DNA from: Candidatus Gastranaerophilales bacterium
Lineage (GTDB): Bacteria > Cyanobacteriota > Vampirovibrionia > Gastranaerophilales > Gastranaerophilaceae
Assembly (NCBI GenBank): GCA_944322725.1
Contig: CALUPU010000003.1
Span: 1-64,000, forward strand
DNA length: 64,000 bases
Reading direction: 5' to 3'
In this document: in pieces, positions 28,751 to 33,266 of the stretch
How positions within the stretch are numbered: the first letter of the stretch is position 1
Layout of the letters: each line of letters starts with the position of its first letter
Position numbers and translations under genes: made by a program
Notes under the pieces: generated by a model
Told to the model about the DNA's origin: nothing
The model's input: the letters and a program-made list of their open reading frames with translations, nothing else
Databases searched by the model: none

Positions 28751-29419
28751 CTAGTAATACGGACAGGCTCTGTAATATTTACAAAGCTTGCAATTATCGG
28801 TTTTATTACAAAAATAAGTCTTATTTTCAAGGATTTTGTTTATTAAAGACAGAATGAGTGTTCTGTATTGGATATACAAATCCTCATCAAAAGTTATTCT
28901 TACCGTATTATCGGTTGCAAGTTCAATATAATATAAAGAAAGATCAGAGGCTTTTTTAATAAGACCTTTTGCCATTAAAATTTCATACATACAAAACAGA
29001 TAAAAAGATGTCTGAAATTTAACACCCTCAGGAGAAAAATTTTCACCTGTTTTCCAATCCGCAATAATATAGTGACCTCCGTATTCAAACAAAGCATCGA
29101 TTCTGCCTGTAAGCCAGTAAGAATCGATCTTTACATTAAAGGTATATTCGCTTGCAATACAGTTGTAATTACACACATCGGAATTTTTAAAATTGTGCCA
29201 CAAAATCTTTTCATTTTTAGTTAACGCCTGCAAAAGTTTGCTAATATCTGCTTTTTTTAGATAGAAGTTTATCAGATTATGCAGGTTATTTCCTGTTTTT
29301 GTCTTGCTTATCGGCTCTATAACATGCACTTTATCTATATAACATAGTTTATACTTCTGAGGGCATTCATCGTACATTTGCAATTTATTCAGAGTAAAGG
29401 TTGTATTATCAACAGTCAT
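28751..29419 (-). CDS. RecB/AddB/Cas4-type iron-staple nuclease
   Basis: A 222-residue single-domain PD-(D/E)XK nuclease. Motifs appear in order: GRID (105-108), D121-W-K123, and QxxxY (136-140). The four cysteines that form the Fe-S staple in AddB and Cas4 are C19 near the start and C210xxC213xxxxxC219 at the end. It lies immediately downstream of the 1285-residue dual helicase, with an 11-base overlap. The frame opens at 29476, but ATG 29419 is preferred for its GGAG Shine-Dalgarno sequence and smaller overlap. It probably supplies the nuclease of a double-strand-break end-processing complex. There is no CRISPR array nearby, so a Cas4 role is unlikely. Confidence 0.85.
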   Translation of the reverse strand: MTVDNTTFTLNKLQMYDECPQKYKLCYIDKVHVIEPISKTKTGNNLHNLINFYLKKADISKLLQALTKNEKILWHNFKNSDVCNYNCIASEYTFNVKIDSYWLTGRIDALFEYGGHYIIADWKTGENFSPEGVKFQTSFYLFCMYEILMAKGLIKKASDLSLYYIELATDNTVRITFDEDLYIQYRTLILSLINKILENKTYFCNKTDNCKLCKYYRACPYY

Positions 29420-32400
29420 TTGTATTTTTCTCCGGCAAAACCGGTAAATTGTTAAAAAATACCGATTGCGTAACATCTTTTAATTTAGAGAATTTTTTGT
29501 ATCTGCCTGCGCTTGTAATGTAGAGTTTTTTCTTTGCTCTTGTCACAGCTACGTACAGCAGCCTCATATTCTCTCCTGCAATAAAACGTTTTTGCTGAAT
29601 TTCATCTTTTTTGCAGTAATTTAAGTTTAACGCTTTAACAGCTTCAAGAAACCGTTCTTTTGATTTAATTTTTATATTATTAATATCAAAAGGAAGTGTA
29701 TCTTCGCACATCTGCGGCAAAAATACGTAATCAAACTCATCACCCTTTGACTTGTGATATGTCATTATATTAATAACTCCGCTGTTGCCGTTTTGGGCAG
29801 AAGAATCCTCTGCAAAGAATTTATACTTACTTAGAACAGGCTTTTTAGAAAGTTCTTCAAGCTGTTCCAGAAGAACATCCGTACTCCTGTACTGCAGTGA
29901 TAATCTCTTAAGAAGCAGCGCAACCATATAAACATTGGATTTTTCCAGTTCTGAATTGTAATAATAATTACCGATTTTAAGAGCAAGTTCCTCACACTCC
30001 AGAATCGATGACTCCAGCCAGTAATTCATATCCCAGAGGAATTGTATAAGATTTTTTGAATCAAGATTATTTTCATTCAGAAGAATAAAAGGCGTTTTCA
30101 GGTCTTTTATAAACTCGTAATCCTCTGCAGAAAAAGAAAACAGTTTTTGCTGTCTTAGAATATCCAGAATTTTTAAGACATTTTCATTTTGCCAGGGATG
30201 AGAGCAAAATCTTAAAACAGCATAAATCAATGAAAAAATAGGCTGTGCCTCTAGTGTATCATTTCTCGTCATTACACTATATCCGTAATCCGAGAGAAAT
30301 CTGCAGTAATCCTGTATTTGATAGTTATTTCTGACAAGTATTGCAACAGAAGCATTTCTGTCAAAAGAAAAGATATTTCTTACCTTTTCCAGTATGAAAG
30401 ACTGTTCCTGTTTATAATTTTCAAACAGTGCCGTCTGTACAGCATCTTGCGAATCAGGATTTTTCCCCTGAACGCCCTGCATTTTTATATCATAAAAAGA
30501 ATCCTTCAAATTCTCATTAGTCTTTGCATAATCAATAATTTTATTTGCAAGCGTGTAAATATCTTTTGCACAGCGTTGTGAACGGTTCATTTCCACATTA
30601 TTTGAGACGGATACAAAATTTTTAAATCCGTCTAAATCCGCATTTGTAAAAGTTGTTGTAATAGCCTGATTTATATCCCCGCAGCGAATGAGATTACAGA
30701 ATTTGGCACTCAAAATACCTAAAAGTTTCTGCTGAATATATGAAGAATCCTGCGCTTCGTCTTCTATAACATATCTGCAGATGTCCTGATAATATGCTGC
30801 AATATCTTTATTCTCTTCGAGAAGTTGAACGCAATAAGACAACATATCATCGTAATCAATTATATTTCTGTTTTTTAAAGAGTTATTATAAAGCGTATAA
30901 AATTTAAGGAATTTTTTAAGTTCATTATCCTTTGTAAAAGGTATATCATCCAATCCAGAAAGTTTTAGCAAAGATACAGCTTTTTCGTATTTGTCAAAAT
31001 CCTCCTGTTCTATCTGCATTCTGAACATGATTTCTCTTATAATTCTTTGTCTTTCATTGTCGTCACATACTTCAAAATCATCATCAAGACCGACTTTTAC
31101 AAAATTAGAGTTTTCTTTTAAGATTCTCAGAGCAAGCCCGTGTATAGTAGAAATATTGGGCATCTTTTCAAGTGAAGGACACGCATTTTTTATACGTTCT
31201 TTAAAATTTCTTGCAGCGGAATCCATGTATGTAAGAACAAAAATATTTTCGCTTTTCACTCCATCTTTCAGAAGTTTTATTATCAAAGCAAGAAGAATAG
31301 TAGTCTTGCCTGCACCGGGAACCGCAGATATTGCCATATTGCCATCATGATAGTTTAGCACAGGTTTTTGATCTTCTCTTGGTACAAAGTTGAAGTTAAT
31401 TTTTTCACTTACGGTTTGACAAGAACCGATATAACTTTCGATTCCTCCAAAATTTTCATTTCCTTCCATATCAAAAAGACTTGAATAAGCGAAAATCTTC
31501 TCTTTACACAGAAGTGAAAGTTTTCTCAACTGTTTTTTTACTTTTAGAGAAGAAAGTTCAAGATTATCTTCGTACGTAAAATCATTTTTATTCCACGATT
31601 TTTGAAACACCCATGCATTGTAAAGAGTGCCGAAATCATCACGAATCCAGTCTGAAGAGGTTATATCAAGCCAGAATTGATACTTAGTTTTAACGGCAAA
31701 ATCAATAAGCTTTTGCGCAGTAGAAACTATGATACAATCGTCTTTTAATTCAGGAGCAGAAGAAGGGTTCTCTGATATTATAGAATTTTCAAGCTGCTGC
31801 AAAAAAGTTTTCTGAAAAACAGGTTTGGTTTTGTGTTCAGGAAAAACATTCTCAAAATCCTGTATCTGCTTTACAAAGAAATTAAAAGCCTCAAGCTGTG
31901 AAAACTCCTCCTTTTGTATATATACAAGATTTTTATATATACAAAAAATCTTATCGGACAAAGGCATTTGAGGATTTTTAATCTGATTAAGAGTATCAAT
32001 AAGCTTTTGCAATAAAGTGTTATAATCTTGCACCCCTGTATCACAAAAACTGATTTCTCCGTTTTCTTTAAAAGATGAAACAATCTGCATACAGTATCTG
32101 ACAGGAATTTTAAGCAATCCGTTTACAAGTGAACGAATTTTAAAAACATCCTGATTATTTCCGATAGATATATTCAAAAGTGTAATCGTATTTTGGACAA
32201 GAGGAGTAGAACACAGTTTCTCACTTCCTGAAAAATACTGGACTCCTATGTTTTTCGTACCAAAAATCTCCGCTGCACTAAATTTTAAAGATTTATCTAT
32301 AATAGGGGTTATTATGACAATATCAGAAGGTTTTACCCCTGATTCTATTAATTTTGAAGCTTGTTCAAAAATTGAATTAAGCATTTCAAGCCGTCTTGTG

Positions 32401-33266
32401 TATGCAAAATGCTGAGCATTAACCGGCTTATATCCTATATCATCGAAAGATTTGTATTCTTCATTTTTAAACAATTCTTCTATATTTTTAACTATATTAC
32501 AGTCAGTATTCAAAAAGCCCAGCCTGCTTGAACCATGCCTGTCGTACCCGACATAAGCCTTTTTAAGCTGAGGTTTCAGATACTTTATAAAATCAAATTC
32601 ACACTGGGTAATCTCATCAGCATCATCAATAATCAGGTATTTGATATTTTTAAAGTAATACGTATTTTTATATATGTGATTAAAAAGCCCGAGTTGTCTT
32701 ATATAATCAAAAGCCCTGTATTCAAGCGTTTTTTTCTTATATATGTCAATTGCATTAGCCGCATCTAAAGCAAAACTCTCACCCAGCAGTCCGGAACGTA
32801 ATGCAACTTCTCTATCTGTCAGGTTGTTATTAGCAATTAATGAATAACGCCTGAATAACTGATGCATAAGGTTAATTTTAGAATTGTAATCTTTGAAACC
32901 TACTTCCTTAACAGCACTTTTAAAAAATAGCTGTGAAATTTCCAGACCTGATAAATTAGGAATAATTACCGGAAAGCCCTCTTTTATATGCGATTCGACC
33001 ACCGTCCAGTTATTCATTATAGTATTGTAAACAAGTCCGTAAAAAGTATAAATCTGCGGATTTTCGTAATGTTTAACAGATAGCTTGGCTTTAACATAAT
33101 CGGTAAATATATTCTTTTTAAAGGAATTAAGACAAAGCACAAGAATCTCAGATGCTTCAACATCATTTTCAAGAAGATTTATATAAGTATTTGCAAGTTC
33201 TGTTGTTCTTTCTGATAAAGCACTGCCCTGTATAAGCATTTCATACTCCCTATTACATTTTAACAT
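29409..33266 (-). CDS. Dual UvrD-type helicase (AddB-like and AddA-like halves fused)
   Basis: A 1285-residue SF1 helicase protein. The C-terminal half is intact: AVPGAGKTTILLA (motif I, 648-660), IDYDDML (803-809), VIEDEAQD (motif II), RCGDINQAI (motif III), MTYHKSKGDEFDYV (motif V) and LLYVAVTRAK (motif VI). The N-terminal half (1-600) looks like a second helicase that has decayed. Its P-loop region reads IQGSALSERTTELA (12-25), its motif II is LIIDDADE (211-218), and a domain-2-like stretch begins near IVIITP (316-321). The layout resembles AddB plus AddA in one chain, with the nuclease as the next gene. It probably processes broken DNA ends for recombination. No nuclease domain was seen in this protein itself. 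Confidence 0.85.
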   Translation of the reverse strand: MLKCNREYEMLIQGSALSERTTELANTYINLLENDVEASEILVLCLNSFKKNIFTDYVKAKLSVKHYENPQIYTFYGLVYNTIMNNWTVVESHIKEGFPVIIPNLSGLEISQLFFKSAVKEVGFKDYNSKINLMHQLFRRYSLIANNNLTDREVALRSGLLGESFALDAANAIDIYKKKTLEYRAFDYIRQLGLFNHIYKNTYYFKNIKYLIIDDADEITQCEFDFIKYLKPQLKKAYVGYDRHGSSRLGFLNTDCNIVKNIEELFKNEEYKSFDDIGYKPVNAQHFAYTRRLEMLNSIFEQASKLIESGVKPSDIVIITPIIDKSLKFSAAEIFGTKNIGVQYFSGSEKLCSTPLVQNTITLLNISIGNNQDVFKIRSLVNGLLKIPVRYCMQIVSSFKENGEISFCDTGVQDYNTLLQKLIDTLNQIKNPQMPLSDKIFCIYKNLVYIQKEEFSQLEAFNFFVKQIQDFENVFPEHKTKPVFQKTFLQQLENSIISENPSSAPELKDDCIIVSTAQKLIDFAVKTKYQFWLDITSSDWIRDDFGTLYNAWVFQKSWNKNDFTYEDNLELSSLKVKKQLRKLSLLCKEKIFAYSSLFDMEGNENFGGIESYIGSCQTVSEKINFNFVPREDQKPVLNYHDGNMAISAVPGAGKTTILLALIIKLLKDGVKSENIFVLTYMDSAARNFKERIKNACPSLEKMPNISTIHGLALRILKENSNFVKVGLDDDFEVCDDNERQRIIREIMFRMQIEQEDFDKYEKAVSLLKLSGLDDIPFTKDNELKKFLKFYTLYNNSLKNRNIIDYDDMLSYCVQLLEENKDIAAYYQDICRYVIEDEAQDSSYIQQKLLGILSAKFCNLIRCGDINQAITTTFTNADLDGFKNFVSVSNNVEMNRSQRCAKDIYTLANKIIDYAKTNENLKDSFYDIKMQGVQGKNPDSQDAVQTALFENYKQEQSFILEKVRNIFSFDRNASVAILVRNNYQIQDYCRFLSDYGYSVMTRNDTLEAQPIFSLIYAVLRFCSHPWQNENVLKILDILRQQKLFSFSAEDYEFIKDLKTPFILLNENNLDSKNLIQFLWDMNYWLESSILECEELALKIGNYYYNSELEKSNVYMVALLLKRLSLQYRSTDVLLEQLEELSKKPVLSKYKFFAEDSSAQNGNSGVINIMTYHKSKGDEFDYVFLPQMCEDTLPFDINNIKIKSKERFLEAVKALNLNYCKKDEIQQKRFIAGENMRLLYVAVTRAKKKLYITSAGRYKKFSKLKDVTQSVFFNNLPVLPEKNTNDC

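Follow-up and report, generated by a model that had tools for sequence, protein, structure and literature searches.

Several machines that process double-strand DNA ends have been described. AddAB (RexAB) pairs an inactive with an active SF1 helicase and has PD-(D/E)XK nuclease and a C...CxxCxxxxxC staple; the inactive helicase and the Fe-S nuclease are found in one chain, AddB, and the active helicase, AddA, carries its own C-terminal nuclease. In AdnAB, each subunit contains a UvrD-like motor and its own nuclease, and the system has been reported only from Actinobacteria (PMC6452273). RecBCD has three parts, including a nuclease fused to a motor, a second motor of the RecD type and a non-motor helicase-like arm (RecC). 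The inactive helicases of AddB and RecC are used for Chi reading (PMC4824097). The common model cyanobacteria Synechocystis 6803, Anabaena 7120 and Synechococcus 7942 and 7002 are reported to lack a complete recBCD (PMC5101192), S. elongatus has been stated to encode AddAB, without checkable detail (PMC10269773), and the conclusion of comparative surveys was that there must be presynaptic systems yet to be discovered (PMC1193525). In Clostridiales, outside defence contexts, an unfused UvrD gene is followed by that of a Cas4-like nuclease (pfam12705), and DNA repair was already suspected there (PMC5704561).

The window (the whole stretch of 64,000 nucleotides analyzed here, from a Candidatus Gastranaerophilales bacterium) encodes an active SF1 motor, an inactive helicase-like arm and a RecB-family nuclease together, which is the composition of the AddAB/RecBCD-type class. 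The two helicases, designated N and C, are halves of one protein, and the nuclease (Nuc) is the product of the next, overlapping gene (Table 1). The original prediction of a 1285-residue helicase and a 222-residue nuclease overlapping by 11 bases was confirmed for both ORFs on the minus strand, and every sequence motif that it listed (QGSALSERTT, LIIDDADE, GRID, DxK in the form DWK, QxxxY and C...CxxCxxxxxC) was found. The listed helicase ORF, 29409-33266, corresponds to 1285 aa; the most likely start is M10 (33239), since relatives begin there and a GGAG precedes it, and the protein would then have 1276 aa. The nuclease ORF spans 28751-29476, and its 222 aa are counted from M20 at 29419, the start common to relatives. 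An overlap of 8 bp was observed in 20 of 30 relatives, compared with 11 in the window. The pair was unbroken in all of the 30 first relatives, and in a second, partly overlapping set the nuclease lay downstream of the fused helicase in 78 of the 79 loci with downstream room. Conservation of the wider neighborhood was also sought, and none was found outside the genus. We estimate a probability of about 70% that this pair is a double-strand DNA-end resection machine of the AddAB/RecBCD/AdnAB type, representing a lineage of its own with the parts N, C and Nuc. The computed basis of this reading comprises the anatomy, fold and active sites of the proteins, the orthology of the parts, their co-occurrence and co-loss, and their complementarity to RecC.

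Table 1. Features of the helicase-nuclease locus, with positions in the window.
Feature	Position	Strand	Basis or remark
Fused helicase CDS	29409..33239 (ORF to 33266)	minus	1276-1285 aa; ORF call, relatives' start, order-wide conservation
N half, decayed UvrD-type helicase (N-subunit)	31401..33239	minus	PF00580 matches, AlphaFold model, fold search
Degenerate Walker A, GSALSERT	33204..33227	minus	Motif table
Motif II of N half, YLIIDDADEIT	32607..32639	minus	DD.DE invariant in 30 order members
Motif III region of N half, GYDRHGSSRLGFL	32511..32549	minus	Nearly all N-subunits retain GxxR and L
C half, intact UvrD-type SF1A helicase (C-subunit)	29412..31400	minus	PF00580, UvrD_C
Walker A of C half, PGAGKTT	31299..31319	minus	Invariant in 30 sequences
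Motif II of C half, EDEAQD	30747..30764	minus	Motif comparison
Motif VI of C half, VAVTRAK (arginine finger)	29532..29552	minus	Motif comparison
Overlap of helicase and nuclease genes, 11 bases	29409..29419	minus	Helicase stop codon included
PD-(D/E)XK nuclease, 222 aa (Nuc subunit)	28751..29419	minus	PF12705 E 2e-15; AlphaFold pLDDT 93.4
Cys19, first of the four putative Fe-S cysteines	29363..29365	minus	Invariant
GRID, nuclease motif II	29096..29107	minus	R and D invariant
DWK, nuclease motif III	29051..29059	minus	D and K invariant
CxxCxxxxxC (Cys210, Cys213, Cys219)	28763..28792	minus	Invariant in 30 sequences

The C half was matched far above chance by PF00580 (E 1e-52) and UvrD_C (E 1e-22), and contained every SF1 motif, all of them invariant in distant relatives, as expected from its original description as an intact UvrD-type helicase. 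In a tree made with a quick method (SH-aLRT support, without bootstrap), the C subunits, fused or not, formed one clade (SH-aLRT 100), separate from PcrA, from a Rep-like protein and from the sampled nuclease-bearing UvrD proteins. The fused C subunits constituted one clade (SH-aLRT 98) that takes in G341, a member of another family in the class, and this is consistent with a single fusion.

The N half, when searched alone, was matched by PF00580 in 14 of 30 members, with a best E of 1.4e-6 and a value of 2e-4 for the window sequence. Its AlphaFold model (m6d3a0d801814; pLDDT 82.9, pTM 0.81) predicts the fold of a complete SF1 helicase, and the nearest solved structures over the whole length were UvrD/PcrA/Rep (Z 22-26), followed by AdnB (21-23), RecB (17-21) and AddB (about 20). 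The description of this half as a decayed helicase was borne out for residues 1-620 by the PF00580 matches and the predicted fold, and the structure prediction requested for this part did yield a helicase fold. No match was obtained when an order-level profile of the N half was searched against PDB sequences, and the wider N-subunit profile matched PcrA/UvrD. The comparison of the N half with the C half by hhalign gave a probability of 41 and E 3e-4. No named family for this decayed helicase of about 700 aa was found in Pfam or NCBIfam.

The helicase motifs of the N subunits have been lost piecemeal and independently, and the non-motif blocks were kept. The GDxxQ of motif III is lost in the N half. 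The P-loop site is partly kept in order relatives (GTISSGKT or GDLSTNKT), and its lysine is lost in the four examined members of the window genus (ERT, GRT, DRT). A P-loop was present in all nine of the aligned cyanobacterial N subunits (GxSRSGKT, GxxxxGKT or close variants); "cyanobacterial" (photosynthetic) is here an assumed label, taken from the phylum, the large or small genomes and the match to the RecBCD pattern of PMC5101192. In several N subunits of families f9, f12 and f13 the P-loop is gone (GLPGQGLR) and the other blocks persist. Since independent losses recur, the ATP hydrolysis of N appears to be dispensable and its body does not. By analogy with AddB and RecC, we infer that the N subunit may act as a scanner.

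The nuclease was described originally as a stand-alone protein with an Fe-S-type cysteine pattern, and this agrees with its being a separate gene in each of the 30 relatives and 78 of 79 loci mentioned above. The residues C19, G43, H47, R106, D108, D121, K123, Q136, Y140, C210, C213 and C219 were invariant in 30 relatives. The four cysteines have the staple layout, with one on the N-terminal and three on the C-terminal side of the nuclease core, and are invariant in 30 order members; they are kept in most cyanobacterial Nuc homologues, and an Fe-S cluster is predicted from this pattern. In the fold search, the nuclease model came nearest to the AdnA nuclease (Z 16.9), ahead of Argonaute-associated ACE1 nucleases (16.4) and AddB (13.5), and the closest relative in a profile comparison was the AdnA/AdnB nuclease (E 1e-9).

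Together, these parts suggest how the proposed resection machine could work. The three proteins would form a complex in which C would be an intact 3'-5' UvrD-type motor, and N, no longer in need of ATP, would probably play the part of AddB and RecC, a non-motor arm by which the unwound strand is held or read. Nuc would bind an Fe-S cluster and cut the unwound strands, so that ends would be resected or degraded, possibly under Chi-like control.

The same three parts were found as separate genes elsewhere in the phylum, in the majority of its sampled genomes. The N-half profile detected stand-alone ORFs of about 660-740 aa, which align end to end and share blocks such as QFWLD..S..W and GxxRxG; the matches of the wider N profile ranged from E 1e-150 to 1e-254, values to which several matched sequences contributed by having helped to build the profile. 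The unfused parts are a decayed helicase of about 700 aa, a UvrD-like helicase of about 770 aa and a nuclease of about 270 aa. They occur in the order N, C, Nuc with overlapping frames in families f9, f12 and f13 (L192-L196). In family f3 one locus has N-C-Nuc with its ends cut by the contig (L165), and another has N-C at a contig end (L199). C adjoins Nuc in G035, with N elsewhere. In the large-genome cyanobacterial families the genes are mostly apart, and 30 cyanobacterial genomes have separate N, C and Nuc, with Nuc not clearly found in two of them. In one genome N is apparently split into two ORFs of 334 and 361 aa (G177:C1:2697049-2698974), with C and Nuc intact; this could be a frameshift, a pseudogene or a true split.

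Outside the phylum, plasmid pSR56 of Salinibacter ruber M8 (L251, Rhodothermota) contains in a row the genes of a hypothetical protein, an ATP-dependent helicase, a PD-(D/E)XK nuclease and recJ, and the N, C and Nuc profiles matched there with E 3e-80, 7e-126 and 3e-50, respectively. An N-subunit homologue (E 1e-71) was also detected on pILYOP01 of Ilyobacter polytropus (Fusobacteriota; L252:5989-7962). It is annotated as a UvrD-helicase domain-containing protein and stands alone on this megaplasmid. The N-half scan of the genome contigs matched close relatives only, and therefore the reach beyond the phylum was seen through plasmid records only. In phage records, matches were limited to the generic UvrD half.

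Because relatives deep in the phylum have three separate genes, the simplest assumption is that Nuc was already a gene of its own when N and C fused. The earlier proposal of a nuclease domain turned into a stand-alone subunit is hence upheld as regards the separate subunit, but not as regards a split within this lineage. The ancestral state would be three genes ordered N, C, Nuc; N and C would have fused in Gastranaerophilales and one sister family, with Nuc remaining separate and overlapping. This fusion apparently happened once. The fused gene was present in all of the sampled family members except three (G115, G285 and G290) and also occurs in two other families of the order; it is single-copy in almost every member of the family, in many genera. 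As an old operon of the chromosome, the helicase-nuclease pair belongs to the core genome and not to an island. The suspicion that the layout is lineage-specific proved right. Gastranaerophilales genes were also found under two other taxon names, Fusobacterium sp. CAG:439 (L093, FR900441.1) and Heliobacteriaceae bacterium (L122, JAIRZW010000105.1), which are probably misnamed metagenome bins.

The original prediction identified the halves with AddB and AddA. A true fusion of these two proteins, with a nuclease domain shed, would account for the AddB-like topology, for the inactive helicase beside the active one, for the cysteine pattern, which is the AddB staple, and for a nuclease fold like that of AddB. 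The N half indeed has an SF1 fold with decayed motifs that aligns with AddB over its length. However, no AddB or AddA family model was satisfied: the AddB models gave no match among the window proteins (E 0.011 for one distant nuclease only), the AddA model scored 113 bits on the fused helicase against a cut-off of 707.65, and PF12705 is absent from the helicase chain. The N-subunit profile scored the AddB-like protein of the same genome at E 0.26 and PcrA at 4e-9, PcrA thus being nearer by sequence, and the nuclease is nearer to AdnA than to AddB. The isolated position of the C clade and the three split genes in other families and phyla also count against such an origin, which we consider unlikely.

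The proposed machine probably shares its working principle with AddB/AddA, AdnAB and RecBCD, although membership of each fails on the features tested. Unlike in AddAB, its helicases, fused or separate, bear no nuclease, and the single nuclease is a separate protein; the inactive helicase and the Fe-S nuclease are not in one chain as in AddB, and the active helicase lacks the C-terminal nuclease of AddA. It resembles AdnAB in its UvrD-like motors and in the nuclease, but neither helicase carries one of its own as AdnA and AdnB do. With RecBCD it has in common three parts, a non-motor helicase-like arm and a complementary phylogenetic pattern, but not a RecD-type second motor, a nuclease fused to the motor or, in the window genome, a RecC homologue. 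The Clostridiales UvrD/Cas4-like operons (PMC5704561), compared by their description only, differ in that no decayed helicase partner was described.

The co-occurrence of the parts was analyzed in 66 genomes, picked from two earlier searches partly on the presence of N, and therefore the tests show concordance, not frequency. N and C agreed in 65 of them (45-1-0-20) and N and Nuc in 63 (43-3-0-20); the Fisher tests ignore shared ancestry, and the co-occurrence rests on about five to seven independent losses. Joint losses of N, C and Nuc were found in the small cyanobacterial genomes of family f28, in G085, in families f2 and f35, in G001 and G047, and in at least two events inside Gastranaerophilaceae (G115; G285/G290). 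N and C without a clear Nuc were present in G051, G027 and G007; the last may be due to a contig end, and the other two are possibly a nuclease-less or nuclease-swapped form.

RecC (PF04257) was detected in all five of the small f28 genomes that lack N, C and Nuc; the 30 cyanobacterial genomes with the system are all without it. The exceptions were four f5 genomes with RecC and N, three of which also have C and Nuc. G085 has neither RecC nor the N/C/Nuc system, and no known system was found in it. Most f2 genomes are without any known double-strand-end system, and neither RecC nor a PF12705 nuclease was found in the near-complete f2 genomes G077, G096, G236, G240, G321, G325 and G351. Since N, C and Nuc occur mainly in genomes without RecBCD, they may stand in for RecBCD in cyanobacteria, which were believed to have no such substitute. 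With somewhat better than even confidence, we propose that this unnamed three-protein end machine, made of a decayed helicase, a motor and an Fe-S nuclease, serves as the substitute in most cyanobacteria, and that it also occurs in Rhodothermota and possibly in Fusobacteriota, with its helicases fused in Gastranaerophilales.

The same anatomy would suit end-processing tasks outside break repair, for example the handling of DNA taken up in transformation or work at stalled forks; recJ adjoins the system in Salinibacter, and the absence from the RecC-bearing small genomes fits either reading. A core role in repair is favored by the complementarity to RecC and by the near-universal presence in Gastranaerophilales of the gut, and no connection with competence genes was noticed. 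Such another task seems quite improbable.

Other end-processing candidates were found in the same genomes. In the window genome (L016:4700-9719, contig C10), an 843-aa AddB-like protein with a C-terminal PDDEXK domain and cysteines adjoins an 848-aa AddA-like helicase without a nuclease domain. recA lies a few genes from this pair, which is a single-nuclease AddAB variant seen in the genus. An ORF of this kind (846-865 aa) was present in 5/5 sampled genomes of the window genus, and many other members of family f1 have instead an ORF of 1003-1041 aa with a nuclease domain. Examples of the latter were found in G071:C22, G031:C32, L240, L242 and L243, and those examined are UvrD-PDDEXK proteins. 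The three genomes that lost the window system (G115, G285 and G290) keep an ORF of this kind of 1019-1032 aa. Therefore, other candidates exist beside the window system in some genomes. By a hand count of genomes whose one match lay in an ORF of less than 300 aa, at least 25 of the 117 family genomes gave no PF12705 protein other than the window-type nuclease. No match to RecC (PF04257) was found in the window genome.

A complete addAB or recBCD elsewhere, together with a grouping of the window pair among unrelated defence helicases, had been named beforehand as evidence against the original prediction; the AddB-like/AddA-like pair is of the first sort, though without a nuclease domain in its AddA-like chain, and the second did not materialize because the window pair is unlike a defence system in its behavior. 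An anti-phage helicase-nuclease, Gabija-like or of the UvrD-Cas4 kind of PMC5704561, is a doubtful reading and was rejected: PADLOC GajB models do match the C half via the shared UvrD fold and stand-alone Cas4-like nucleases with UvrD are found in defence contexts (PMC5704561), but the spread is not patchy given the single copy in nearly all family members, the neighbors vary or are housekeeping genes (IF2, PcrA) with no defence partner gene among them, occurrence is complementary to RecC, N is unlike anything in GajAB, and the partner of the helicase is a PD-(D/E)XK nuclease matching Cas4 models, not the GajA ATPase-TOPRIM.

No named machine of N/C/Nuc composition was found in the literature covered, which excluded subscription papers and preprints. 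The decayed partner and the cyanobacterial link appear to be new in the searchable literature, and the unfused UvrD/Cas4-like operons were already known (PMC5704561).

Three concrete genes that track the cyanobacterial recBCD gap can now be named, and the fused Gastranaerophilales operon is the key that links them. That these genes escaped notice would be explained by their mostly scattered positions in cyanobacteria and by the absence of any Pfam or NCBIfam family for the decayed helicase. If the proposal is true, this system would be another architecture beside RecBCD, AddAB and AdnAB, with a helicase arm that has decayed and is retained despite the loss of its ATP site, and break repair and recombination would become directly testable in genetically tractable cyanobacteria.
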